A stretch of DNA of 41,071 bases from a virus: the IMG/VR virus record IMGVR_UViG_3300022204_000006, positions 1-41,071 of that record. One strand, 5' to 3'. A program made the translations under genes and the position numbers. Below the pieces are notes generated by a model. It had not been told where the DNA came from. It worked only from the letters and a program-made list of their open reading frames with translations, and made no database searches. Below, in pieces: positions 8,669 to 41,071 of this stretch (positions are counted from its first letter, which is position 1; each line of letters begins with the position of its first letter).

Positions 8669-9213
8669 TAGTGGACCTTCTTTTCATCTAGGATGTAGCC
8701 GTAGGTGGGGATGTCAATCTGCCTGATTTTTCGTAGGTCTTGGCGGGTGTAGGGGGTGTTGGTTAGGTCGGGGGCGGTTACGGCTACGCGCTCGGTGCGG
8801 CGGAGGGGGCGGGAGATATATTCGCAGATAAATTGGCCGTTTTGGTCGATGGTTGTTTGGCAAAGTAGGTCTGCGGTGTTGGCGACCTCGTAGATTTTGA
8901 TTGGGAGGCCAACGGGGCCATGGCCGCTGATGGTGGTTTCTCCTAAGCGGGGGCGGTCGAGTTTGACTTTGACCAGCTTGGGTTTGGGTGGGGGGCTGTT
9001 TGGGGGGTTAACTAAGGGGGGGGTTTTGCCTTGTTCTAATGGAGCGGCAAGGGGGCTGGTGGTGAGGGATTCAGCGGCCATGGTGGTATTGATGGGGCTA
9101 ATGAAGGGGTTGGCCCGTTGGGTAGAAGGTTGGGTAGCAGGTTGGTTTGCAATGTTCATTAATCTGATAAATACAAATAGGATAACTAGCCAGATTTTTC
9201 TTTCGTCGTTCAT
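8668..9213 (-). CDS. Membrane-anchored protein with Ig-like domain
   Basis: 181 aa. Residues 7-22 are a hydrophobic N-terminal anchor or signal (IWLVILFVFIRLMNIA). A disordered Pro/Thr/Ser-rich spacer extends to about residue 78. Residues 80-150 look like a bacterial Ig-like fold: VKLDRPRLGETTISGHG, then VGLPIKIYEVA and a TTIDQNGQF turn, as in surface Ig repeats. TAGGAGG precedes the ATG. It appears to be the first gene of the late transcript. It could be a surface-exclusion or adhesion protein; the role is inferred. Confidence 0.6.
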   Translation of the reverse strand: MNDERKIWLVILFVFIRLMNIANQPATQPSTQRANPFISPINTTMAAESLTTSPLAAPLEQGKTPPLVNPPNSPPPKPKLVKVKLDRPRLGETTISGHGPVGLPIKIYEVANTADLLCQTTIDQNGQFICEYISRPLRRTERVAVTAPDLTNTPYTRQDLRKIRQIDIPTYGYILDEKKVH

Positions 9214-9453
9214 AAAGCCTCCTAATGATATGGTATCATATTTTGGGAGGAAATGTCAGTCCCCGAAAGGGTAGTATTTTCTGTATTTAACAGATTTTGG
9301 CAGTTAGAAGGGTGGACTTGGTAGTTAAAAGATTGTATTATTCAATTAAAGTTGATTTTGGAAATATACCACACTAGCCAAATAAACTGGTATATTCTTC
9401 TAAAATTGAAAAAAACTAATTATTTTATTACTTATGTTTTAAGGAGAATGTAA
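9214..9453. other. Divergent intergenic region between late operon and plus-strand island
   Basis: 240 bases without a gene between the divergent starts at 9213 and 9454. It is AT-rich. A small palindrome ATGATA-TGG-TATCAT (9225-9239) lies just upstream of the late ribosome site and may be an operator. On the plus strand TGGTATATT at 9388-9396 resembles an extended -10 element for the next gene. No convincing -35 element is visible on either strand, so the late promoter may need a phage-encoded activator. Confidence 0.4.
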
Positions 9454-9915
9454 ATGAAACGTATTATTAGTATAATTTTCTTGTTGTCCATTATGTCAAT
9501 TATGACATTTGATAGTTTGGCTGGAAATAGTTATGGTGGATGGATGTTCCGTGAAGGAAACAGGTGTACTCAAGGTATGCGGGTAGGACAAATAAATAAA
9601 GATATCAAAAGACTCTATAAAAATGATGAAGCACGGTCTGTAGATGTACTTTCTTTGCCTGCTGGTTCAACCATTACAGTCTATGATGATAAAGAAGGTA
9701 GGTGGTGGAAGGATGATTGGGCCGAAATAACTGTAAAAAAGAATTTCCTCGGTTGGATATGTGTAGAAACTTTTGAAAAGAGTGGTTGGTATGGTCCTAA
9801 TCAAGAAATATATGTTACATACCATAAAATGACATCAAAAGGCAACTTAGATGGGAAAGTTTCTTTTGTCAGATATTACTTTCCACCAGTTTACTACAAT
9901 TTGAATACATACTAG
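9454..9915 (+). CDS. Small secreted protein, unknown
   Basis: 153 aa with AAGGAG upstream of ATG. Residues 1-23 form a classical signal peptide (KRIISIIFLLSIMSIMTF then an Ala/Gly cleavage region). The mature part is rich in Trp, Tyr and Gly, contains two Cys residues and reads like a beta-rich domain, with LPAGSTITVYDDKEG resembling crystallin- or SH3-like strands. It lies on the opposite strand to the phage operons and is AT-richer than they are, as is usual for lysogenic-conversion genes. The function is unknown; a host-surface effect is a guess. Confidence 0.65.
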   Translation: MKRIISIIFLLSIMSIMTFDSLAGNSYGGWMFREGNRCTQGMRVGQINKDIKRLYKNDEARSVDVLSLPAGSTITVYDDKEGRWWKDDWAEITVKKNFLGWICVETFEKSGWYGPNQEIYVTYHKMTSKGNLDGKVSFVRYYFPPVYYNLNTY

Positions 9916-9998
9916 GGTTAATCAACTAAAAAATGGTGATAAAAGTTTTTTGGCTAGTAAAAACTTTACATGGCCGCAAATGCCTATTTACGGCCATA

Positions 9999-10023
9999 CC
10001 ACTGTTAAAAAGAACCACTGTAA
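9999..10023. repeat. 25-bp dispersed repeat, copy A
   Basis: This has the structure CCACTGT-n9-AACCACTGTAA, and differs at two of 25 positions from 22142-22166. Each copy holds CCACTGT twice in direct orientation, 16 bases apart. This copy lies upstream of the promoter at 10071-10099; the other lies upstream of the integrase-operon promoter. It could be a binding site of a shared regulator. Confidence 0.6.
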
Positions 10024-10038
10024 GGCTTATAGAATAAA

Positions 10039-10072
10039 AAAGCGTTTTCCAGGAAAACTTGGGAAACGCTTT
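10039..10072 (+). terminator. Terminator-like hairpin, copy A
   Basis: Stem AAAGCGTTTTCC / GGGAAACGCTTT with one G-T pair and a 10-base loop, closing the 9454 gene. The T tract is short. The sequence is nearly the same as the hairpin at 10818-10854, so the two bracket the small membrane-gene cassette. Confidence 0.65.
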
Positions 10073-10099
10073 GTAATATGTAAAGATTTTGTGTATAAT
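10071..10099 (+). promoter_or_regulatory. Sigma70-type promoter for membrane protein
   Basis: TTGTAA, 17 bases, TATAAT. It starts immediately after the preceding terminator stem. The predicted start point falls at or next to the ATG at 10106, so the message may be leaderless or the gene may start further in. Confidence 0.55.
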
Positions 10100-10105
10100 A
10101 CCCTT

Positions 10106-10549
10106 ATGAAATTATTGAAGTGTTTTTTAAGTTTTATGATATTAAAAAGATTTAATATAGAGTTCGCAGGATTAAATATACGGATTTTGATACTCTCACT
10201 ATTTGTGATTTCACAAGCACCTAAAGGATTAGGTTTATCAACTTTTTTGGGTCTATTTTTAGGTGCAATAGCACTAAACTTAGCTCTACTTACTGGTTTA
10301 ACTTATATTTTAGCTATAGAGGTTACACCAAAGGCTATGGCTTATCTGTTTAGAATTAAACAGGATATACACTGTGTGCTTGTTGAGTTAGATTCGTTCT
10401 TATCAAGCTATTTTTTCTTCCCAAAGGTTTTTTCTACGTCTTTTCCTCAGTTATACAAGTTGTTTGAATATAGAAAACTCAAACAACATGTATCATATTC
10501 TTCAATACCTTATCAAATATACCCCTTATCTTGTACATTAATAGAATAA
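10106..10549 (+). CDS. Small membrane protein, unknown
   Basis: 147 aa from ATG 10106. The open frame extends upstream through the hairpin at 10039-10072, so a start at 9950 is unlikely. Two hydrophobic segments, about residues 25-38 (IRILILSLFVIS) and 42-70 (LSTFLGLFLGAIALNLALLTGL), are followed by an aromatic-rich cytoplasmic part with many Phe and Tyr. No ribosome site is visible, and the promoter at 10071-10099 would give a leaderless message. The family is not recognised. Confidence 0.5.
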   Translation: MKLLKCFLSFMILKRFNIEFAGLNIRILILSLFVISQAPKGLGLSTFLGLFLGAIALNLALLTGLTYILAIEVTPKAMAYLFRIKQDIHCVLVELDSFLSSYFFFPKVFSTSFPQLYKLFEYRKLKQHVSYSSIPYQIYPLSCTLIE

Positions 10550-10629
10550 AACTTCTCCTATTTATAAAGTCCGTTTTCAATTTGTTGGTTTAATTAAAAA
10601 TTAGAACTATTAAAAATAGGAGTTTTATT

Positions 10630-10791
10630 ATGTTTGATTTTTTGACTTTGTTGGTAATTAGGTTGGCCCAACTTGGCCTTTTAGTTGTTGTTGTTGATGG
10701 TAATGCACCTGTAGAACTAAAAGCAGGTGTTATTGGTGCAATAATAGGTTTAGGAATAGTGGCTAAAAGATACGAAACATCTAAAAGATAG
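10630..10791 (+). CDS. 53-aa membrane peptide
   Basis: The start is ATG 10630 with TAGGAG seven bases upstream; the stop TAG is followed 26 bases later by a strong terminator. The protein begins MFDFLTLLVIRLAQLG, then LLVVVVDGNAP, then a second hydrophobic segment GVIGAIIGLGIVAKRY and a basic tail KRYETSKR. Two short helices with a Gly/Ala-rich second helix resemble small holins or phage membrane-depolarising peptides. It stands alone on the plus strand. A weak promoter TTGGTT-17-TATTAA may lie at 10585-10613. Confidence 0.6.
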   Translation: MFDFLTLLVIRLAQLGLLVVVVDGNAPVELKAGVIGAIIGLGIVAKRYETSKR

Positions 10792-10817
10792 ACTAGACAA
10801 TATGATGAGATAAAGAA

Positions 10818-10854
10818 AAAGCGTTTTCCGGGCAAACTTTGGAAACGCTTTTTT
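10818..10854 (+). terminator. Rho-independent terminator, copy B
   Basis: Stem AAAGCGTTTTCC / GGAAACGCTTT with an 11-base loop and six T. It ends the 53-aa gene and is convergent with the LuxR-type gene that stops at 10853. It is a near copy of 10039-10072. Confidence 0.8.
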
Positions 10855-11116
10855 AGTGGGCGGAGATTAGGCCAGTGGAGGCGGCGATGAAAACGGCGTG
10901 GGTGCGGTTGGTGGCTTGTAGGGCGATACGGGCATCGGTTAGGTGTTTTTTGACGGTTTCGGGGGTGATGGTCATTTTGCGGGCTATGCCTTTGTTGGTG
11001 AGACCGAGGGCGGCAAAATATAAAGCCTCGCGTTGGCGGGGGGTTAGTTTTGGCTGTGGTGGCCGTGTGATGGGGTTGTTAAGGTTCTTTTTTACCAAAG
11101 TTGCACTGCGTTCCAC
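10853..11116 (-). CDS. LuxR-type HTH regulator, DNA-binding domain only
   Basis: 87 aa with a GTG start, AGGAG six bases upstream. Residues 24-85 are a GerE/LuxR helix-turn-helix: LTPRQREALYFAALGLTNKG, then IARKMTITPETVKKHLTDAR as scaffold and recognition helices, and a closing helix. No receiver or ligand domain is present. It lies beside the iteron array and could regulate replication or late transcription. A second HTH-only LuxR protein is at 29294-29524. Confidence 0.85.
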   Translation of the reverse strand: MERSATLVKKNLNNPITRPPQPKLTPRQREALYFAALGLTNKGIARKMTITPETVKKHLTDARIALQATNRTHAVFIAASTGLISAH

Positions 11117-11223
11117 TTTGGACTCCTGCTTTAATTTTTTTTAGCAACAATAGTAAAATTCTTACTGTTGTTATTTTTGTTTGTAATCTTATTTGTAGTC
11201 TATGTGTAATCTCTGGTATAGCT

Positions 11224-11349
11224 GGTTTAAAATTAAACCGTCCATGGTTTAATTTTAAACCGTCCATGGTTTAATTTTAAACCGTCCATGGTTTAATTTT
11301 AAACCATGCATGGTTTAATTTTAAACCATGCATGGTTTAATTTTAAACC
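11224..11349. repeat. Six tandem 22-bp iterons, putative replication origin
   Basis: Six 16-bp palindrome-like units start at 11224, 11246, 11268, 11290, 11312 and 11334, exactly 22 bases apart. The unit is GGTTTAATTTTAAACC (the first has AAAATT in the middle), joined by GTCCAT or ATGCAT. A period of 22 bp equals two helix turns and is typical of plasmid iterons bound by Rep. The same motif occurs at the promoter of the rep-like gene, at 12885 and 12958, suggesting that the initiator binds both. Confidence 0.85.
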
Positions 11350-11370
11350 ATGGGCCGTAAGGACGTAAAA

Positions 11371-11407
11371 ACGGGGTTATCCATTATTTTATTATGGATA
11401 ACCCCGT
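11371..11407. other. Strong hairpin next to iterons
   Basis: Perfect 14-bp stem ACGGGGTTATCCAT / ATGGATAACCCCGT with a 9-base AT-only loop. Each arm holds TTATCCAT, close to the DnaA box TTATCCACA. It lies 22 bases after the last iteron. It may be an origin element or a terminator; no T tract follows on the plus strand. Confidence 0.65.
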
Positions 11408-11442
11408 CTATTGGCTGTCGGGCTGGTGGTTTTATTTAGTTT

Positions 11443-11661
11443 TTAGGGTGTGTTTATTTGGGTTGTACCTGGGTTAAAGGTGGTTGAGATTGATTTGGTT
11501 ATTACCCTCGGATTCCCTTTTATAAATTTAATAATAAGTTCAGCTTCCCGGCCAGTGTTTTGGGTGATTTGTGATAATTCTATAGCTAAATTATCAATTT
11601 CTGTGATTTGGGCCAGGGTAAGCTTTTTTAACCCCCATGCGGGGGGGTGTTGCTTGTTCAT
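11443..11661 (-). CDS. Small protein downstream of rep, unknown
   Basis: 72 aa with GGGGGT upstream of the ATG. The middle is a predicted helix (LTLAQITEIDNLAIELSQIT) followed by GREAELIIKFIKGNPRVI. It starts 72 bases after the rep stop on the same strand and lies just before the hairpin and iterons. A role in copy control is possible from position only. Confidence 0.55.
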   Translation of the reverse strand: MNKQHPPAWGLKKLTLAQITEIDNLAIELSQITQNTGREAELIIKFIKGNPRVITKSISTTFNPGTTQINTP

Positions 11662-11733
11662 TATTATTATACCCCCTTTTGGTTGGTTTTGGTAGTACCC
11701 GTTTGGGGACTATTTGTTAAGGTAAGGTTATTG

Positions 11734-12852
11734 TTAAGTTGAGTCATTGGTTTTTACCTCAAATTGTAGATTAGTTAAGCCGTGGTTTGATGCGGCTCGT
11801 TGAATTGGTTGCAATAAACGACCATTAACCCATTCAACTGCTTCTTTACTTTTAAGGCCAATTATTAATATTTGGTCATCTCGGCGAATAGGCAAACACC
11901 CTTTTAGCCAAGTATTAAAGGTTGATGTTGCCATTTGGCCTTGGAGGGTTTGGAGGGTGGCCTGCCAGTTTTCTACATCTTCTTTGTTTACCCCCGCCGC
12001 TTGGAGCTTCTGCGCCTCTGCTTCAGCTTCTGCGACTTGGGCCTCTATTTGGGCTTGGGCCTGCTGGTTGATTTGGGTGGTTGGGTCGGGTAGTTCTGGT
12101 GGTTCTGGTGGTGGGTGGTTGGCTCGGAGGCGTTTGATGATGAAGCCAGCTTCAAGGTCTTCATTTTGGGCGTATTCTATCCAACCTTGAATATGCTCTA
12201 TTGGTTTGTTTTTGAGTTGGGATAGGGCGGGTTCGGTGATGCCTACGGTGGTTAGTAATTCGATGGCTATTTTTTCATCTTCTGATTGTGCAACTTCTTC
12301 GGCTTGTTCTGCGGATTCTGACTGATTGTTTAATTCTAAAGGATGGGGTTGCTTGGTGTTTTCAGTTTCATCATCAAATAGAAAATCCATAGGTGTTTGT
12401 TTGTAGGTTTTGGGAGGAGTAATATTAAATTTGGGATTTTTATCGAGTTCTTTTTGGATTAGGTTTAGGTTAAGGAGATATTGGTGGATGCGGTCAAAGC
12501 CGTAACGCGGGTTGCGACGGCATTTAAGGTATTTTTTTTCAACCAAATAAACAAGACTCTCTTGAATTTTGTTGCGCCCAAAAAGCCCCATTAAGTCGTT
12601 TAATTTCAAATCTTTGATTGATTTGTAAATCCATGGTTCGGCTTCTACGGATTCAGGTCCGTAACCTTCTTCCTTGGCTTTTTGGAGTTTTTTGGTGATG
12701 AGGTCTAATTTCCAGTCGGTCCAGTATTCCATTACAGCTAGTATGGCGGCGGCACAATGGTTGCCCTCGCAGATTGCTAGAAAATCCTCGCGGAGTAAAA
12801 CGAGGCGATTACGCGGTGGATGAGAAAGGCAGCTTGTTTTGATAGTTGTCAT
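11734..12852 (-). CDS. Replication initiator-like protein with DnaA domain-I-like C-terminus
   Basis: 372 aa. Residues 1-140 form a helical, probably winged-helix domain (LVLLREDFLAICEGN...AILAVMEYWTDW) like phage and plasmid replication proteins. A disordered acidic linker follows, then a Pro- and Gln/Ala-rich hinge. Residues about 293-368 resemble the N-terminal domain of DnaA, which binds helicase: LQGQMATSTFNTWLKGCLPI then ILIIGLKSKEAVEWVNGRLL. A likely role is origin recognition plus host helicase recruitment. GAGGAAA precedes the ATG. A candidate promoter at 12887-12915 overlaps an iteron-type operator, suggesting autoregulation. Confidence 0.75.
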   Translation of the reverse strand: MTTIKTSCLSHPPRNRLVLLREDFLAICEGNHCAAAILAVMEYWTDWKLDLITKKLQKAKEEGYGPESVEAEPWIYKSIKDLKLNDLMGLFGRNKIQESLVYLVEKKYLKCRRNPRYGFDRIHQYLLNLNLIQKELDKNPKFNITPPKTYKQTPMDFLFDDETENTKQPHPLELNNQSESAEQAEEVAQSEDEKIAIELLTTVGITEPALSQLKNKPIEHIQGWIEYAQNEDLEAGFIIKRLRANHPPPEPPELPDPTTQINQQAQAQIEAQVAEAEAEAQKLQAAGVNKEDVENWQATLQTLQGQMATSTFNTWLKGCLPIRRDDQILIIGLKSKEAVEWVNGRLLQPIQRAASNHGLTNLQFEVKTNDST

Positions 12853-17275: not shown

Positions 17276-17562
17276 AATTTTTCCTTTGTTTTGGACACAA
17301 TTTGGGTGGCTGCGGCAGTTGTGATTGTGTCCAAAATTGTATCAATTATTAAATCGGCAAAGGCATCGGCACTATCAAAGGTTTCAATCTCTAGTGTTTT
17401 ATCGGTTAAATCAAACCATATATCTCTATTGATATGATTCTCAAACTCAGCCAACATTTTGTTTAATGGCTGTTGGATTCTGATATAGCCACCAAATTCT
17501 ATAGCCTCAAATTTGTAATAATCGTATTTCTTTACTAAATACTCTCTAGTTAGTGTTGTCAT
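17257..17562 (-). CDS. Small protein, unknown
   Basis: 101 aa from ATG 17562; ATG 17571 or a GTG inside the palindromic element upstream would add three to seven residues, and no ribosome site decides. The sequence is mixed alpha/beta with aromatic residues ([17 protein letters not shown]) and an acidic helix [17 protein letters not shown]. The C-terminal codons are built by the palindromic element 17293-17332. It overlaps the DUF5131 start by 19 bases. Confidence 0.5.
17293..17332. repeat. 40-bp palindromic element 2
   Basis: GGACACAAT / ATTGTGTCC with TGCGGCA in the centre. It is read in frame as the end of the 17257-17562 gene and lies just ahead of the DUF5131 ribosome site. Confidence 0.85.
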
Positions 17563-17577
17563 TATTATCATTTTCGT

Positions 17578-17617
17578 GGACACAATTTAGGTCACTGCGG
17601 CAGTTGAAATTGTGTCC
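17578..17617. repeat. 40-bp palindromic element 3
   Basis: The longest arms of the family, GGACACAATTT / AAATTGTGTCC (11 bp), with CACTGCGGCAGTTG in the centre. It lies between the SH3b gene stop and the next start. Confidence 0.88.
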
Positions 17618-17682
17618 ATTTCGAGACTGCCCCTTCTATTTAACAAAAAAAGGCTTTTGTCGACTAGATGGGTGTGTTCTAA

Positions 17683-22581: not shown

Positions 22582-22629
22582 TGACTTAGTCTCCTTCAGT
22601 ATATCTTATTCTTCTTCAGTTAGTTTTTT

Positions 22630-22669
22630 GGACACAATTACGGTTACTGCGGCAACCATAATCGTGTCC
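22630..22669. repeat. 40-bp palindromic element 5
   Basis: Read on the minus strand it can pair along almost its full length: GGACACGATTATGGTT with AACCGTAATTGTGTCC, using two G-T pairs, around GCCGCAGT. It is therefore the best case for an RNA hairpin in the family. It lies between two minus-strand genes. Confidence 0.85.
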
Positions 22670-22682
22670 TTTTTTGATTTAT

Positions 22683-24830
22683 TTATTTATTTATTGCTTG
22701 TAAAAATTTCTCTCCATTGGTTGTTATTTTTTGGAGTTGCAATAGCTGTGCGGGAGTGGCATAGCTCATTATTTCGATTATTCTATCGAGGGTGGCTAGG
22801 TCACTATCATTTATCTTTAGTATTTGTTCTAAGAAAGCTTCTTGGGCGGGTTCTAGGTTTAGCGGCATTCGTCCACATTCTCCACAAGGTTCAGGGAGCC
22901 AAGGGTCGGGGACTATCTCATAAGCTAGTTTTCGGTTGTTGGTGTCCCAAATTTCTTGGATTGTTGGTTTTTTGGTTTCAGCTTCATTGGCTCTTTGGCC
23001 GGTGATGGTTTCAGTTTCTTTGCTAAATTCTGTTTTTGCCTCTCTAAATCTGCGGAGGTTTGACCATTCAAGCCCGCAGTCATTACATTTTAATCCGCCT
23101 CCCTCGCGGCGGTTGATGATGCCGTTGCAAAGGTGACATTTGAGGGGGTTGGGGGTTGGGGGTTGGGGGTTGGGTTGTGGCTCTGGCTTGGCTGGTTGCT
23201 GTAGCCAAGCATCTTTGCTCGATTCCTTTCCACACTTAGGACAAACAATTGGACGAGTAGGATTAAAGTCTCTTGTATAACCACATTTTGGGCAAGTACC
23301 GCTTACATATACGTTGGGTTTGTATTCTTCTTTGGGTTTAGGTTCGGTAAGCCACAGATTTGGCCTTGCTTGTCTATTGCATTGGTCGCAGGTGATGCTT
23401 ATTTCGCGATGCATTTCATCACCAGTGAATAGCCGTGAGTTGTTGCAGTTGGGACAATAACGGGTTTCTCGGTGTCTGGCTCTCGTCTTTTCTGCTTCTA
23501 TCTCGGCTTTGCAGTCCCTATAGTCACCAAGACCATGATATTTGGCGTTACAGGCTTCGCAGGTTATGAGGCTAATATGAAATGGGCCTTTGGTAAATAG
23601 TGCTTTTTTGTTGCAACGTAAACAGGGGAGGGCGGCAACTTCGGCTTTGAGTTGTTTTAGTTCGTAGTTTTCTTTTAAGGCTTGTCTGACTCTTTCATCT
23701 GCTTGGCTGGTGGAAAGACCATTAAAGGCAATATAACAACCTAATTCAATGCAATCTTGTTCTAATGGTGGTTCCTCTTTCATTAACCGAACTAGATGGC
23801 GACCACTTTGCTGTGCCAATTGACCTTTAGCAATTAATTCCTGTATGTCAAGCGGGAGTTTAAGTAAGTCAGTTAAATTTTTGGCAGCACTTTTCTTGAG
23901 GCCGTGAACTTTACCTGCTTCTTCATAGGTCCATCCAAACGCTTCTCGACCTTGTTCAATCGATTTGGCTCGCTCGATGGCGTTGAGGTTTACCCGTTGG
24001 TCGTTTTCTATGGTGGCTGTTTTATACATTTCTTCATCAGTCATCTGCACTAGTTTAATTGGCATTGCGGCCCAAGTATCCCATTCATCGCCGTGAAATT
24101 TATCATTGTACTTGAAGGCGGCTAGGCGGCGATGTCCAAAGGCTAGTTGTACTCGACCATCACTGCCGGGGCGGGCTACTGGTACTTGAAGCAAACCCAA
24201 CGTATTTGGCAAGGTTTTTTTCTGTAGACGGATGGAGCGGGCTAGTTTTTGGGTCTCTACCGGGTTTAGCTCTAAGCGGGGTTGGTAGGGATTTTGGTCG
24301 ATTAGGTCAAGGGGAACTAGGCTTAACCCTTGGTCGGTGGGGTATTCCTGGAATACTTTTTGAGTAGGGGCGGGCGGCTCGGCTGGTGGCTGTGGCTCTG
24401 GCTCTACCTGCCCTAGTTGGGATTTTAGCCAAGCTTGTTGCTGGCCTATGCCTAAGTTGGCTAGTGGGATTTCTACGGTGTAGCCCGCTTGGGTTAATAA
24501 GTCGGTTAGAAATTCGCGGTAAGGCAACCCAGCTAAGATTACTATTTTTGCACTGGGTTCTAGTTTGCTCTGGATAGAAGCAAAGACTTGATTAGCCCAT
24601 TCTTGGCGGTTGGTTCGTGTCATTCGTTTTAATGTGGCCTCGTAAGGCTTAATAACTTGGCTCGGTGGTATTAAACCGTGTTTGGCCGATAAGATAAACC
24701 ACTGGTGGCCTGATTGCTCGGCGTAGGCTCTGGCTAAGGTAAACCAAGTCGAGGTATATAGCTCGGCGGCGGGGGCTGCTTCCTTTTTCTTCTTTCCAAC
24801 ACAAGATACTAAAATAATTTGTTTTTGCAT
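22683..24830 (-). CDS. DUF6884-ParB-zinc ribbon fusion protein
   Basis: 715 aa from ATG 24830, six bases after TGGAG. Residues 1-140 match DUF6884: QIILVSCVGKKKKEAAPAAE, LYTSTWFTLARAYAEQ and WFILSAKHGLIPP. Residues about 165-385 are a ParB/Srx-like domain with VPLDLIDQNPYQPRL, the box-II-like AFGHRRLAAF and an HTH region (TYEEAGKVHGLKKSAAKNL). At least four CxxC pairs follow (CLRC/CEAC, CPNC/CDQC, CPKC/CPKC, CHLC/CNDC) plus CGEC, forming serial zinc ribbons. No ParA is encoded in the window. A ParB-type DNA clamp with several zinc ribbons is unusual. The encoded Pro-rich segment contains a 7-bp DNA repeat. Confidence 0.85.
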   Translation of the reverse strand: MQKQIILVSCVGKKKKEAAPAAELYTSTWFTLARAYAEQSGHQWFILSAKHGLIPPSQVIKPYEATLKRMTRTNRQEWANQVFASIQSKLEPSAKIVILAGLPYREFLTDLLTQAGYTVEIPLANLGIGQQQAWLKSQLGQVEPEPQPPAEPPAPTQKVFQEYPTDQGLSLVPLDLIDQNPYQPRLELNPVETQKLARSIRLQKKTLPNTLGLLQVPVARPGSDGRVQLAFGHRRLAAFKYNDKFHGDEWDTWAAMPIKLVQMTDEEMYKTATIENDQRVNLNAIERAKSIEQGREAFGWTYEEAGKVHGLKKSAAKNLTDLLKLPLDIQELIAKGQLAQQSGRHLVRLMKEEPPLEQDCIELGCYIAFNGLSTSQADERVRQALKENYELKQLKAEVAALPCLRCNKKALFTKGPFHISLITCEACNAKYHGLGDYRDCKAEIEAEKTRARHRETRYCPNCNNSRLFTGDEMHREISITCDQCNRQARPNLWLTEPKPKEEYKPNVYVSGTCPKCGYTRDFNPTRPIVCPKCGKESSKDAWLQQPAKPEPQPNPQPPTPNPLKCHLCNGIINRREGGGLKCNDCGLEWSNLRRFREAKTEFSKETETITGQRANEAETKKPTIQEIWDTNNRKLAYEIVPDPWLPEPCGECGRMPLNLEPAQEAFLEQILKINDSDLATLDRIIEIMSYATPAQLLQLQKITTNGEKFLQAINK
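23144..23171. repeat. Four GGGGGTT heptamers inside the ParB-fusion gene
   Basis: Four perfect 7-bp units in tandem encode a Pro/Asn/Thr-rich linker on the minus strand. Heptamer repeats of this kind expand by slippage and are scattered in the window with other sequences (TTAATGG, GGTGGAT). Confidence 0.85.
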
Positions 24831-24855
24831 GATAATCTCCATTTGTTGCTAATCA

Positions 24856-24900
24856 GCCCGTATGTGGCCTAACGGCGTAAGCTGTAGGCCGCATACGGGC
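24856..24900. other. Strong intergenic hairpin
   Basis: 16-bp stem GCCCGTATGTGGCCTA / TAGGCCGCATACGGGC with one G-T pair and a 13-base loop. It fills the gap between the ParB-fusion start and the next stop. It may be an mRNA stabiliser, attenuator or protein-binding site. Confidence 0.75.
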
Positions 24901-27378: not shown

Positions 27379-27921
27379 TTAAAATAACCTAGCTTGCACG
27401 GCGGCGGGATGCCACCGCCATGCTTGTGTGGAAACACCAGCAACTACAGCAACACGCCAAACACCCGACCGCCAACGGGGAAGGCGGGGGGCAGACTGCC
27501 CACACCAAAACACAACAACGGGTAAACCAAGACCAGTAGCAAAAGCTAAGGTTGACCATGTGCCCGAAGGGGTACGGCCCGACCGCCAACGGGTGGCGGG
27601 GGCAATACCAGAGGGACACGGGCCAGCAGGGAAACCAAACACCAACGCACCGGGGCCAGTGGCCGCACTAGCGGCCACCGCCTTAACCATAGCTTGGGAA
27701 CGCTGAACCAAAGCGGGGGCGGAATTGTTAGCGGCCTTGAACACTAACGCACCGGGGGCGGCTTGGCGTACCGCTAAATCTGCCCCACTAGCACACCCGA
27801 CAGCAGGGCGGCGGCCACTGGCGACAACAGAGGCGGCAACCTGCCCCACTAACGAAGCGAAGCGGGGCGGCAATAACCGCCCCCCAGTGAAGCCAACTAA
27901 AACAGGGCTACCCACTAGCAC
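27379..27921 (-). CDS. SLOG/DprA-like Rossmann protein
   Basis: 180 aa. The N-terminal part reads VGFTGGRLLPPRFASLV, then VGCASGADLAVRQAAPGALV, and later GTWSTLAFATGLGLPVVVFW. This is the layout of SLOG-family nucleotide-binding proteins (LOG, DprA, TIR-linked SLOGs): a glycine-rich first loop, a Gly-Ala-Asp element and the GTW strand-helix. The coding strand is G+T-rich, the reverse of all neighbouring genes. The start overlaps the upstream gene by seven bases. SLOG proteins sense nucleotide signals in defence and counter-defence; the role here is inferred. Confidence 0.65.
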   Translation of the reverse strand: MLVGSPVLVGFTGGRLLPPRFASLVGQVAASVVASGRRPAVGCASGADLAVRQAAPGALVFKAANNSAPALVQRSQAMVKAVAASAATGPGALVFGFPAGPCPSGIAPATRWRSGRTPSGTWSTLAFATGLGLPVVVFWCGQSAPRLPRWRSGVWRVAVVAGVSTQAWRWHPAAVQARLF

Positions 27922-28256
27922 ACCCCCAAACCTGACCAGCCCAATAAACGGAGCAAGCCACGCACCCCCCCAGATATGGGCAATAATAACCCAAATGTAT
28001 GCGGGGGATGGGATGAAGGAAGGGAGACAGGCACAGAAACGGCGAAGCCCGCAGGATGGGAACTAACAAACACCCCCACACCTAAACGACCAGCCCAACG
28101 ACGGGCAAAAGCGGCGGCCCGATGGCGACAGGCAAACACAGCAACCAACACAATACCAGAACGGGAGCGGGTGGAGCTACGGAGCGACACAGCACGGAGG
28201 CCACCAGCACGAAAAGCAGAGAAAATCAGGAAACGAACATTTTTTTTACTTGGCAT
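27915..28256 (-). CDS. Arg/Ser/Val-rich protein upstream of the SLOG gene, unknown
   Basis: 113 aa from ATG 28256 with AAAGGAG seven bases upstream, the best ribosome site in this segment and the main reason for choosing the minus strand. The sequence is basic (KKNVRFLIFSAFRAGGLRAV) with hydrophobic runs such as GIVLVAVFACR. No motif is recognised. It shares the inverted composition of the SLOG gene, with which it overlaps by seven bases. A frameshifted or decayed N-terminal extension of the SLOG gene is possible. Confidence 0.45.
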   Translation of the reverse strand: MPSKKNVRFLIFSAFRAGGLRAVSLRSSTRSRSGIVLVAVFACRHRAAAFARRWAGRLGVGVFVSSHPAGFAVSVPVSLPSSHPPHTFGLLLPISGGVRGLLRLLGWSGLGVC

Positions 28257-28690
28257 AAACAAACTCCTTTGCTAAAAAATAAAAATAAAATTTACTTATA
28301 GAAATCACCATATTTTTTGGGGGCGTGGCAAGTGGCCTCTGCATTGAAAAGGATGGTTAAGGAAACAAAAAAAAATTTAAGGTGGCTAAGTTGTTTTTGG
28401 GGTTGATTCCATGACAGGGGCTGGTAACGTGAGGCATGGGGTTTGTTTCTACACCTTACAGTTTTTTGGCCTCAGCGTAGAACCGATTCGATTAACATCA
28501 AAAAACTTGCACGGCTGAAAGCCACGCTACAGCAACAACCCTGCGGGCAAGGTCAGCCACACAAACGCCGGGGCAGGGGGAATGGGGGCGACCTGTGGCG
28601 TGCCACCAAAAAATATGGTATCGACCTAAAGAATGGTTGTTACTCCTAATGTGGGGTAGGATAGGAGGCGATTGGATACCTGCGGTTTGC

Positions 28691-28764
28691 CCCGCTTTGG
28701 CGCAATCAAAGCGGGTTGCCCCCCACCCTAAAAACCCTGTGGCTCGGACATTGGTGGGGGGCAA
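28691..28764. other. Tandem strong hairpins
   Basis: First hairpin CCCGCTTTG-GCGCAAT-CAAAGCGGG (28691-28715), perfect 9 bp. Directly after it TTGCCCCCCACC (28716-28727) pairs with GGTGGGGGGCAA (28753-28764), perfect 12 bp, around a 25-base loop. No T tract follows. The meaning is unknown. Confidence 0.65.
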
Positions 28765-29102
28765 TAGCTGGTATGGAGTGGGTGGGGTGGATGTGGAGAA
28801 GCTGTGGGTAGTATGTTTGGGGGGGGATTTGGTGGCTTTAATAAATATTAGCTCCCACCCCGACATACCAGAGGATAGAAGGAAAATTTGCTTGTGGTTT
28901 GAGTAGGGTTGTTGCAGGGGGGGAGGGGTTGCGTGTTGTAGATGATGCGTTTGATGCAACGCCGCTAGGGAAATGGAGACTCGGTGCCTGGGGGGATGTT
29001 ATGGGTGTTGCTGGTTGTTTAATTATTCCAAATAAAAACAGTGAATAGTGGATGGTGGATGGTGGATGGTGGGTAGTTGATGTTTAATAATTGGGGATTA
29101 TC

Positions 29103-29293: not shown

Positions 29294-29524
29294 GTGGCTG
29301 GTAAAAATTTAATATTAACTGCTCGGCAAGAGGAGATTATGAGAGCAGTGGCTAAAGGTTTTACTGATGACCAGATTGCTATTGATTTAAATATTAGTAT
29401 TTGGACAGTCCGCAGTCATTTGGAAAATATTTTCATACACTTGGATGTCAAAAATAGAGCTCATGCAGTAGCCAGATTCTTGGTGCTTGAATTGTGTCAA
29501 GTGCCTTTAAATGATTTATTTTAA
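29294..29524 (+). CDS. LuxR-type HTH regulator, DNA-binding domain only
   Basis: 76 aa with GTG start; GGAGGT lies five bases upstream. Residues 8-65 match GerE/LuxR: LTARQEEIMRAVAKGFTDDQ, then IAIDLNISIWTVRSHLENIF and VKNRAHAVARFL. No sensory domain. It precedes a putative virion gene on the plus strand and may activate it or the late operon. It pairs in kind with the 10853-11116 protein but is clearly different in sequence. Confidence 0.87.
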   Translation: MAGKNLILTARQEEIMRAVAKGFTDDQIAIDLNISIWTVRSHLENIFIHLDVKNRAHAVARFLVLELCQVPLNDLF

Positions 29525-29570
29525 TTTTTTATTTTAATTTTTTAGCCCTTATAACCACAGGAGGTGATTT

Positions 29571-30134
29571 ATGGCTAGAGTACGATATCCATTAGCATCG
29601 GTGGAAGCTAGTGGCAAATTTGAAAATTGGGTTTTTGATAAGCGGGGACGTGCTAGAAAATTTGTCCCTCCAACAAACCCGCAGACAATACAACAAGGCA
29701 ACAATCGGCAATTAACTGGTAGTGCTCAAAATTCTGTGAGTGTAGTTGGTATTACTACTGTAGCAGAGATTAAGAAGTTTATGAGTACTCAAACTATTGC
29801 TACTAAAAATGGCGATGCTTTGCAAACATCTCAATGGAACGCCTATTTAGTTAAGCGAATGTTGGGCGATGCCTATACCGAGATTGCCAATGTCCGTACC
29901 GCTTATGCGGCCTTAAGTGCTGCTGAGCAAGCCGCTTGGGATACGGAAGCTGCTAATGCGGCATTTGTCTCTTTATCTCCAACATCATTGGCTTATGCTA
30001 CTGATGCACCAATGACAACTGGCGAACAATTATTTGCGATTGCCAGAACAATCTATTACATGAAAATTTATGGTGTTAATGGTTTACCTGGCGGCACTAA
30101 TGCTACGGCTTGGGCAACATCTATTGCGGCGTAA
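29571..30134 (+). CDS. Putative virion-associated phage protein
   Basis: 187 aa with AGGAGGTGATTT directly upstream of ATG, an almost complete Shine-Dalgarno match. The N-terminus RVRYPLASVEASGKFENWVF and the motif KFVPPTNPQTIQQGNNRQ are typical of a family of small phage structural proteins that share ASG and NPxTxxQ motifs. An Ala-rich helical middle (AAYALSAAEQAAWDTEAANA-like spacing) follows. It lies convergent to the tail operon and is followed by a strong terminator. The virion role is inferred from the family impression. Confidence 0.65.
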   Translation: MARVRYPLASVEASGKFENWVFDKRGRARKFVPPTNPQTIQQGNNRQLTGSAQNSVSVVGITTVAEIKKFMSTQTIATKNGDALQTSQWNAYLVKRMLGDAYTEIANVRTAYAALSAAEQAAWDTEAANAAFVSLSPTSLAYATDAPMTTGEQLFAIARTIYYMKIYGVNGLPGGTNATAWATSIAA

Positions 30135-30168
30135 TTTTGCTAGTTAGGAGGTGGCACACAAAAAGGAA

Positions 30169-30200
30169 AAAGGTGGTTGGTTATCAACCACCTTTTTTTT
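30169..30200 (+). terminator. Rho-independent terminator
   Basis: Stem AAAGGTGGTTG-GTTAT-CAACCACCTTT followed by a T run. It closes the 29294-30134 plus-strand unit. Confidence 0.9.
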
Positions 30201-30228
30201 ATTCGATTTGTGGGTGGCGTTGCAGGTG

Positions 30229-30254
30229 GCCGTGTGCCGCTTGCGGCATACGGC
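30229..30254. other. Long hairpin A of the structured noncoding tract
   Basis: GCCGTGTGCCGC-TT-GCGGCATACGGC, 12-bp arms with one G-T pair and a two-base turn. It lies 29 bases after the terminator. Confidence 0.75.
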
Positions 30255-30296
30255 GGGTGGGGGAGCGACCTGTGGGTAGAACATAAACGCAATAGC

Positions 30297-30363
30297 TGCC
30301 CTTTGCCTAGCCCCGCAGTAAAACACAGCGTTCAGTTGTGTTTTAGCGGGGCGGCAAGGGGCA
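30297..30363. other. Very long hairpin B of the structured noncoding tract
   Basis: 67 bases that fold on themselves in three stacked parts: TGCCCTTTGCC with GGCAAGGGGCA, then CCCCGC with GCGGGG, then TAAAACACA with TGTGTTTTA around a 9-base loop; a 2-base bulge (AG) and a small internal loop separate the parts. About 26 base pairs form. No reading frame with a ribosome site crosses it. Confidence 0.8.
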
Positions 30364-30433
30364 GGGGTAGGTGCTAGGTGTGTTTGGAGGGGGTTGCTGT
30401 TGGTGTTTTTTTTACTGGTGCTGTAGTTACTAA

Positions 30434-30605
30434 CCATTTTGCCACTGAACGGAGTGAAGGGGCAATATGGTGGTGAATTTGGAAAGCTATTTTTAGTGCA
30501 AGGGAAACAACCACACATTGGAACAATAAAAAAATGGAGCGTAGCGGAGTTTTTTTGTTGTGGAAATGTGGGTAGGGTAGGAGGGCGGTTTGTTTGGGGG
30601 GTGGC
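30434..30605. repeat. Direct duplication, copy 1 (172 bp)
   Basis: Near-identical to 30645-30825, 211 bases apart. It begins with a hairpin CCATTTTGCC / GGCAATATGG (30434-30443 with 30461-30470, one mismatch) around a 17-base loop. An A7/T7-flanked motif TGGAGCGTAGCGGAG and a G-rich end follow. No gene is supported. Confidence 0.88.
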
Positions 30606-30644
30606 TTGTGGCGGGGTTTTGCTTGTGCTATAAGCCACTTACTA

Positions 30645-30825
30645 CCATTTTGCCACTGAACGGAGGTATCGGAGTGAAGGGGCAATATGGTAGTGGGTTT
30701 GGAAAGCTATTTTTAGTGCAGGGGAAACAACCACACATTGGAACAATAAAAAAATGGAGCGTAGCGGAGTTTTTTTTGTTGTGGAAATGTGGGTAGGGTA
30801 GGAGGGCGGTTTGTTTGGGGGTGGC
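30645..30825. repeat. Direct duplication, copy 2 (181 bp)
   Basis: The second copy differs from copy 1 by a few substitutions and a 9-base insertion (GGTATCGGA) placed in the hairpin loop, so the stem is kept. The tail of the copy continues into GC-rich sequence without genes up to 31020. Confidence 0.88.
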
Positions 30826-31110
30826 CTCTGTGCGGAGCTTTGCCACTGCGACCTGTAGCTAGGCCACAAGTTGCCGCTCACGGATAACAAGGGGGCCGTT
30901 TGGATGGGGTGGGGATGTTGGTGGCTAGGGGGTTTGGGTGGAGTGGTAACTTGGCGGTAGGCTCGCTTGGGCCTCGGCGGGGCAATGGGGATAGCGGCAA
31001 GCTGTGGCAGGGTTGGGGGGATAATTTTTAATGGTTAATAGTTAATTTTTAATTGGGTTGGCTAATTTGGTAAGATAAAGAAAACTTGTTCTAAAGTGGT
31101 GGTTGTTTTT
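30826..31110. other. G-rich noncoding stretch with 7-bp repeats
   Basis: 285 bases, no gene. It is dominated by G runs on the plus strand and contains GTTAATAGTTAAT-like 7-bp repeats at 31025-31055. No other structure is clear. Confidence 0.45.
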
Positions 31111-31139
31111 TGACATTAGAAATGGGTTATGGTAAAATG
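31111..31139 (+). promoter_or_regulatory. Near-consensus sigma70 promoter
   Basis: TTGACA, 17 bases, TAAAAT. The expected start is near 31146. It drives a transcript that covers the 17-aa leader and meets the terminator at 31348-31373. Confidence 0.8.
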
Positions 31140-31195
31140 TTATTTGTCTAAGGTAGTATATCAATTAATCTATTTTGGATATCTTAGGAGAACTG

Positions 31196-31249
31196 ATGCC
31201 AGTAACATTAAAAGCAATTCCCACCATTGTTTTTAATGATTTTAATTGA
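31196..31249 (+). CDS. 17-aa leader peptide
   Basis: ATG 31196 lies five bases after TAGGAG; the frame reads MPVTLKAIPTIVFNDFN and stops at TGA. It starts about 50 bases from the predicted RNA start and ends about 100 bases before a terminator. A short, well-placed peptide before an intrinsic terminator is the layout of an attenuation or arrest leader, but no codon bias for one amino acid is seen. It could also be a small effector or chance. Confidence 0.4.
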   Translation: MPVTLKAIPTIVFNDFN

Positions 31250-31347
31250 ATATTAGATTACTTGAAGTGATAAAGGGGCTAACAAAAACTAAGGTGGGTA
31301 GTTGGCTTTGATTTATCCATTCGAGTTTTTTTATGAGTAAATTGAAG

Positions 31348-31373
31348 CCATAGCATTAAGCTATGGTTTTTTT
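31348..31373 (+). terminator. Terminator after the leader
   Basis: CCATAGC-ATTAA-GCTATGG followed by seven T. It separates the leader unit from the 45-aa gene. Confidence 0.8.
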
Positions 31374-31390
31374 AGTTTACAGCATTATTC

Positions 31391-31419
31391 TTGTGTAAAT
31401 AAGGATAATAGTATATAAT
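31391..31419 (+). promoter_or_regulatory. Possible second promoter
   Basis: TTGTGT, 17 bases, TATAAT, just after the terminator. It could express the 45-aa gene on its own. The long leader that follows contains CCACTATATACAGTGG, a small hairpin. Confidence 0.45.
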
Positions 31420-31544
31420 GTTACTAGCTACCCACTACATATTGTGTTTTGTTAGCTGAACCCACTATATACAGTGGTTTATAAAAGAAGGTGATGTGTA
31501 ATCTTAACAAAAAAATACTGATGAAAGGAGGTGATAAAAGCCAA

Positions 31545-31682
31545 ATGATTAAACAAATAAAATCATTGATAGGTAGATTCATTCGGTATTTAAAAGAAGA
31601 AAAAGGCATTGCTAATGTTTTAGCTGCAGCAATGCATCTGTTAGCAGCTCTAGTAAACCTAGCACGCCTTTTTCTAGCGTAA
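31545..31682 (+). CDS. 45-aa cationic amphipathic membrane peptide
   Basis: ATG 31545 follows AAAGGAGGTGAT, a 12-base full complement of the 16S rRNA tail, nine bases away. An upstream in-frame ATG would place this site inside the gene. The peptide starts MIKQIKSLIGRFIRYLKEEK (five Lys or Arg in the first 18 residues) and continues with an Ala/Leu-rich helix NVLAAAMHLLAALVNLARLF. Such a basic, amphipathic design is seen in type I toxins, small holins and leaderless bacteriocins. It stands alone between a terminator and another terminator. The family is not recognised. Confidence 0.65.
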   Translation: MIKQIKSLIGRFIRYLKEEKGIANVLAAAMHLLAALVNLARLFLA

Positions 31683-31693
31683 TTCAGTAGTAA

Positions 31694-31732
31694 CCCCAAA
31701 GCTATTCTCAGTAGCTTTGGGGTATTTTTTTT
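31694..31732 (+). terminator. Rho-independent terminator
   Basis: CCCCAAAGCTA-TTCTCAG-TAGCTTTGGGG, perfect 11-bp stem, with an eight-T run. It ends the 45-aa gene. Confidence 0.92.
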
Positions 31733-31835
31733 ATTATGAGTACTATATCACATAATGTGAAAAGTGTCAAGATAAATTATACCCCAAAAATCAAAATTTG
31801 GTAAATAACGTAAAATGAGGGTTTTTGCCTCGTGG

Positions 31836-40818: not shown

Positions 40819-41071
40819 TTATACTGCTTCATCAGGGCTAATAGATAATGTAGCGGCTTGGGCGGTGGTGGTGTTGGCATCTAGGTTGGCTCGGCGGAGG
40901 CTGTAGCGAATAGCCCAAATTGATTCGATGGTGGTGGTTGTGGTGGGGCGTACTACCACTACTCTCAAATAACGCTTGGTGGGACGGTAAACGTCTACAA
41001 CAAAGTCGGTTTGGGTGCCATCGCTGAGGGTGAGGGTGTCGGGGAGGTCGATGGCATCGGATAAGTTGGGT
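40819..41071 (-). CDS. Putative head structural protein, C-terminal part
   Basis: The right-hand part of the gene that begins at 307 on the left edge. Stop TAA at 40819-40821. The end reads RVVVVRPTTTTTIESIWAIR and then a segment ending ISPDEAV. It is in the same frame as the left part once the 126-bp repeat is merged, giving 141 aa. The function is not known. Confidence 0.75.
   Translation of the reverse strand, partial: PNLSDAIDLPDTLTLSDGTQTDFVVDVYRPTKRYLRVVVVRPTTTTTIESIWAIRYSLRRANLDANTTTAQAATLSISPDEAV
40946..41071. repeat. Terminal direct repeat, right copy
   Basis: This is the exact copy of bases 9-134 at the right edge. It lies inside the coding region of the 141-aa head protein that continues at the left edge. 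The length is close to a typical assembler k-mer overlap, which favours circular closure of the contig. Confidence 0.9.

Follow-up and report, generated by a model that had tools for sequence, protein, structure and literature searches.

Clusters of hairpins of the REP/BIME kind are found at the 3' ends of convergent operons. The single-strand origins (sso) of rolling-circle plasmids are non-coding too and consist of long imperfect hairpins, with an orientation tied to the exposed strand. Among the large structured RNAs, GOLLD and ROOL, which are often located near tRNA islands, resemble the locus described here in being phage-borne, non-coding, several hundred bases long and highly structured (PMC12286853, PMC2864571).

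The locus lies in a single virus record of 41071 bases with the gene set of a siphovirus or tailed phage. This whole stretch is called the window in the following.

Layout of the tract and its surroundings

Bases 5-134 of the window are repeated at 40942-41071 with 99% identity (a 130-nt terminal repeat). As the repeat stands at both ends of the record, the contig probably closes on itself. Portal and capsid genes were named by eye, the tail operon runs leftward from 40.8 to 31.8 kb, and an HNH gene clusters with the small and large terminase genes at 4.4-6.9 kb. That the tract is a packaging site (cos/pac), as was suggested initially, seems very unlikely: it is structured non-coding DNA in a phage, and nothing further speaks for this role, but the terminase cluster is about 24 kb away and the terminal repeat is elsewhere. 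The closest cellular terminase (61%) is that of an Anaerolineae MAG, and we infer that the host belongs to the Chloroflexota (Anaerolineae).

The initial annotation had placed the tract between convergent operons. This is right, but a small cassette with a promoter-like site (31110-31731) is also situated there. To the left, a rightward unit (29294-30134) encodes a LuxR-type regulator and a 187-aa protein; to the right, the leftward late tail operon converges on it. The features are collected in Table 1. The terminator has a G-C stem and a T-run on both strands (30164-30200 on the + strand, 30197-30167 on the - strand) between convergent genes and is thus bidirectional in form. It is preceded by the conserved sequence AGGAGGTGGCACACA, behind which there is no usable start codon.

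The terminator and the 12-bp-stem hairpin reported to follow it were both found, the latter with 11-12 pairs. The next hairpin, P2, had been described as 67 nt with about 26 pairs; it is real but larger. Its pair probabilities have a minimum of 0.83 and a mean of 0.99, and it ranks second among the most stable 70-nt windows of the genome. Neither P2 nor the 11-12-bp hairpin has a T-run, and thus they are not themselves terminators.

The two-copy module also exists, with a longer unit than the 172 and 181 bp first given: the repeat measures about 212-231 bp, head-to-tail, with a spacing of 220-221. The copies agree at 96% over 107 nt and at 88% over 73 nt, so either the duplication is recent or the copies have been homogenised. 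Both copies carry a second hairpin, AACAATAAAAAAA-TGGAGCGTAGCGGAG-TTTTTTTGTT. The 9-base insertion noted in the loop of one copy does leave the stem intact; it lies in copy 2 and repeats the loop sequence CGGAG. P2 and the module stem-loop do not occur elsewhere in the window.

Table 1. Coordinates of the tract and of the neighbouring cassette.
Feature	Position	Strand	Description
Intrinsic terminator, bidirectional in form	30164-30200		hairpin flanked by T-runs; closes the rightward unit 29294-30134
Conserved core	about 30203-30499	+	same place in both phages; 80% identity over 252 bp
11-12-bp hairpin	30229-30254	+	present in both phages
Hairpin P2	30296-30364 (69 nt)	+	30 pairs closing a 5-nt loop; central in the conserved element
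Module copy 1	30401-30612	+	T-run, ACCAT..ATGGT stem-loop, A/T hairpin with GGAGCGTAGCGGAG loop, G-rich tail
Module copy 2	30613-30843	+	tandem duplicate; 9-base insertion in the loop
G-rich non-coding remainder	30844-31020	+	this phage only; no homologue recognised
Cassette	31110-31731	+	window phage only, absent from the relative
Promoter-like site, strong	31110-31138	+	cassette
17-aa ORF	31196-31249	+	cassette; with ribosome site
Terminator	31344-31374	+	cassette
45-aa hydrophobic ORF	31545-31682	+	cassette; good ribosome site
Terminator	31693-31731	+	cassette
Antisense promoter-like site	31770-31742	-	beside the cassette

The cassette looks like an inserted moron and is perhaps a type I toxin-antitoxin pair. 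The region 31110-31770 shows a weak, sub-threshold Rfam resemblance to small RNAs of Gram-positive bacteria (RefA9, Srn266).

Further observations were made in the window. The exact motif GCGACCTGTRG occurs on the + strand at 28588-28598, 30265-30275 and 30848-30858, each time in a G-rich non-coding stretch; three copies are rarely expected by chance, and the related phage introduced below has the variant ACAACCTGTAT. The G-rich stretch 28270-29060 was considered as a diverged copy of the tract but not accepted, its score being reached by 5 of 100 shuffles. The base composition of the leftward frames at 27379-28262 is extremely biased, with little T on the + strand (AT skew +0.54), and inspection by eye suggests Rossmann/SLOG-like motifs; a 180-aa frame among them had no match in Pfam or PHROGs. 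An inverted repeat, GGACACAAT...CTGCGGCA...ATTGTGTCC, is present in three copies near gene ends (17289-17336, 17574-17620 and 22626-22669), which could be operators, terminators or a partition site. The gene at 22683-24842 fuses a DUF6884 domain, ParB N-terminal and HTH domains and zinc-ribbon-like repeats. Beside this ParB-like gene lies the hairpin GCCCGTATGTGGCCTAACGGC...GTAGGCCGCATACGGGC (24845-24900), the most stable 70-nt window of the genome.

Conservation of the core in a related phage

One relative with the tract was found in IMG/VR (IMGVR_UViG_3300032272_000064, 26 kb), through its tail protein (84% amino-acid identity). At 9172-11801 it carries a neighbouring pair of large-terminase-like genes (312 and 558 aa), compared with one in the window. 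Its tract comprises, in this order, the homologue of gene 29571, the terminator with T-runs on both strands, an extra terminator-like palindrome, the 11-12-bp hairpin, P2, a T-run and one module stem-loop. Beside the terminator the relative has a second long inverted repeat with T/A-runs. After TTTTAGTGC the relative's tract passes straight into the end of the tail gene (stop codon); hence 30500-31830, including the second module copy, is extra in the window phage.

The tract is non-coding. The initial annotation had seen no ribosome sites or good genes in 30169-31020, and the non-coding nature is borne out by the relative: P2 has one- and two-base indels between the phages which break the frames, the relative has stops in every frame, and tblastx pieces fall in all six frames. 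A coding gene was therefore rejected.

P2 is the most strictly kept part of the core, with 59 of 62 aligned bases identical (95%). The 3' part of the core has 109 of 136 and the 5' part 68 of 94 identical bases. In the flanking tail gene the two phages agree at 64% of the four-fold degenerate sites; measured against this value, the binomial tails are 7e-9 for P2, 3e-5 for the 3' part and 0.055 for the 5' part. As four-fold identity differs by gene (0.47 to 0.82), 0.75 was used as a stricter yardstick, which gives 3e-5, 0.10 and 0.77, respectively. Thus P2 alone is clearly constrained at every yardstick. The unpaired stretches GACATAAACGCAA and GGTGTTTTTTTT are likewise kept. To judge from the two sequences, the core (about 30203-30499) is probably under selection.

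With regard to structure, all 29 pairs of the P2 fold common to both genomes form in each of them; five of these pairs varied, two by a change on both sides. When the partners were slid against each other as a control, pairing fell to 43-51%. In the two-sequence shuffle control, 116 of 500 shuffles reached the observed value, which is not significant; with two sequences the covariation is thus suggestive, not proof. The inner G+C stem of P2 is one pair shorter in the relative (GCCCGC/GCGGGC vs GCCCCGC/GCGGGGC). In the 11-12-bp hairpin the inner nine pairs are kept, and two one-sided changes leave G-U pairs.

In the module the loop length is free and the stem is kept: the relative's loop ACGGAGTAAAACGGAGTAAAACGAAG... 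is a longer tandem expansion at the same point as the 9-base insertion of copy 2. One inner pair of the module stem, C-G, is G-G in the relative. The inference, drawn originally from the two copies, that the fold is selected is therefore weak in that form, the duplication being recent, but it is supported by the relative through the identity of P2 and its compensatory changes. The duplication, striking as it is, is absent from the relative and thus not part of the conserved function.

It is conceivable, though improbable, that the tract has no function at all and consists of intergenic hairpins and tandem repeats in DNA that was exchanged recently, formed and repaired through template switching and slippage. 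Strong hairpins are found at several other intergenic places of the genome, loop lengths shift by tandem repeats, template switching can produce changes on both sides of a stem, and the tract occurs in two genomes only. Yet the identity of P2 and of the 3' part is far above that of the flanking gene's four-fold sites, and the neighbouring gene 29571, unlike the tract, is down to 49% amino-acid identity. What leaves this interpretation some weight is the number of known genomes, only two, and the chance of a recent exchange of just the tract.

The element seems to be narrowly distributed. In IMG/VR, pattern searches with P2, with the module loop and with the terminator (33 nt) matched solely the one relative, and an earlier module pattern had no match there. 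A blastn search of the tract against known phage and plasmid DNA gave no match, a loop pattern found nothing in 346 Anaerolineae genomes, and a first scan of genome contigs with the tail protein had no match. The covariance model R1 found nothing in 396 Anaerolineae genomes or in 24 other phage contigs with related terminases; as only two close sequences went into the model, it could overlook a diverged relative. Three weak DNA matches among the 396 Anaerolineae genomes, one of them within an apparent coding gene, were taken for chance. In three distant tail-gene relatives (L049, L107 and L108) the tail gene is followed by dense coding and no such tract is present. The tract had no Rfam match at the gathering score; matches obtained with an E-value threshold were at chance level in the window's tract (E 0.39 or worse), and the stronger sub-threshold matches in the relative are its extra terminator-like palindromes.

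Strand, fold and possible function

Compared with dinucleotide shuffles, the RNA fold is exceptionally stable (z -5.9 for 30203-30419, -7.7 for 30169-31020 and -7.5 for the relative). The opposite strand also folds well (z -5.3), because the tract is made of palindromes. The consensus fold of the two-phage alignment has a z of -7.0 on the + strand and -4.5 on the - strand against column shuffles, and the fold energies of P2 are -51.9 vs -42.8 and -45.6 vs -31.3 kcal/mol (+ vs - strand). Wobble pairs cannot, however, pick the strand, since the G/T strand bias favours G-T pairs on + genome-wide. The wobble asymmetry was rejected as proof of a + strand RNA for this reason.

We tentatively favour, at somewhat less than even odds, that selection maintains the core, together with the preceding terminator, as a structured element particular to this lineage, placed where two converging transcription units have their 3' boundary, and we infer that the core acts as RNA. 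The rightward regulator unit and the leftward late tail operon would both run into the core, where transcripts from both sides would be stopped and capped by the terminator and hairpins, with antisense read-through limited and the 3' ends protected. The second module copy would be a later arrival outside the conserved function, as would the cassette to the right of it. This reading is backed by synteny, as the relative's tract lies directly between the gene 29571 homologue and the tail gene stop, by the T-runs which the terminator keeps on both strands in both phages, and by the relative's tail operon, which has no terminator-like hairpin of its own ahead of the tract (read by eye). The near identity of P2, its fully kept pairing, the fold z-scores and the non-coding nature of the tract also agree with it. 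It is weakened by the sequence of P2 being kept more strictly than a mere barrier needs, by the restriction to two genomes with the P2 shuffle result, and by the missing T-runs of P2 and the 11-12-bp hairpin. Moreover, none of the other relatives examined has the element, so it is dispensable for the boundary.

The main rival, which the strict conservation of P2 fits, is a separate, trans-acting structured small RNA. It would be made during infection from the + strand and span about 30203-30411, with its end at the conserved GGTGTTTTTTTT and with P2 binding a protein or RNA. We consider this possible but unlikely. P2 is kept beyond the need of a plain hairpin, unpaired GACATAAACGCAA and GGTGTTTTTTTT are kept as well, and the + fold is the more stable one. 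On the other hand, a scan of the + strand from 30070 to 31110 revealed nothing promoter-like, the RNA would be immediately preceded by a strong terminator, Rfam has no match, and the energy difference between the strands stems from G-T pairs that the strand-wide G/T bias favours anyway. A distinct RNA would be a new phage RNA class; that such a class exists here, with a nearly invariant 30-bp hairpin expressed from the late-operon junction and a protein or RNA partner in the Chloroflexota host, seems rather unlikely to us.

The base composition of the genome bears on a role in DNA. Third codon positions are rich in G and T on the + strand whichever way a gene points; the GC skew there is 0.41 in leftward and 0.19 in rightward genes, i. 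e. of the same sign in both orientations, and the cumulative skew climbs across the whole + strand of the window (1-41071) without a turning point. A skew of one sign in both gene orientations suggests that replication runs in one direction or that one strand is constantly exposed. With a GC skew of 0.43, the tract is ordinary for this genome, and its G-richness was rejected as a special feature. Tandem 22-bp palindromic repeats, TGGTTTAATTTTAAACCATGCA, lie at 11223-11371; they are iteron-like and a candidate replication origin. The product of a nearby gene (11734-12852) weakly matches a phage replication-initiation family.

The hairpins could act in single-stranded DNA, for example as a start site for the complementary strand in one-directional replication. 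The uniform skew is as expected if one strand is regularly exposed, and P2 is very stable. But the proteins examined, part of which were searched against families, included no recognisable HUH or rolling-circle initiator, the iteron-like repeats near 11.2 kb make a better candidate for an origin, and no replication gene is tied to the tract. We regard this role as quite improbable. The suggestion of a second replication origin was not sustained either, since the tract has no skew inflection and no initiator nearby and the repeats and initiator-like gene are at 11.2-12.9 kb.

A decoy function, likewise suggested initially, was examined in the concrete form of an RNA whose GGA motifs in hairpin loops titrate a CsrA-type regulator. 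The tract has 25 GGA vs 15.3 expected (0 of 300 shuffles reach this), the module loops contain ACGGA, AUGGA and CGGAG, and CsrA is encoded in 6 of 120 Anaerolineae genomes. However, the excess comes mostly from the duplicated module, and the relative has no overall excess (7 vs 5.9); 18% of shuffles reach its A.GGA count (3 vs 1.4), and the repeats in its loop degenerate to GAA. As most candidate hosts are also without CsrA, a decoy of this form is very improbable.

If the favoured boundary reading holds, the element illustrates how the late operon and a regulator unit are kept apart in such a phage. The element is conserved and non-coding, in phages whose presumed hosts are a little-studied group, and its hairpin is kept more strictly than the silent sites of the flanking genes.

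Comparison with known systems

CsrB/RsmZ-type sponge RNAs share with the tract the GGA in some hairpin loops, but the relative lacks an overall GGA excess and CsrA is rare in the candidate host class. In contrast to the replicons with an sso, the window is a 41-kb tailed phage in which no rolling-circle Rep was recognised. The tract differs from GOLLD and ROOL in having no Rfam match at the gathering score and no tRNA genes in the window; it consists of simple hairpins and not of a multi-branched conserved fold, and is present in two genomes only.

A further comparison is with bidirectional terminators and REP/BIME-like clusters. Unlike both, the tract contains a nearly invariant P2 which, as the 11-12-bp hairpin, has no T-run, and unlike REP/BIME-like clusters its P2 and module stem-loop are confined to one place and not dispersed. 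As in these systems, several hairpins without a gene stand in a row between converging units, and T-runs flank the hairpin at 30164-30200 on both strands.
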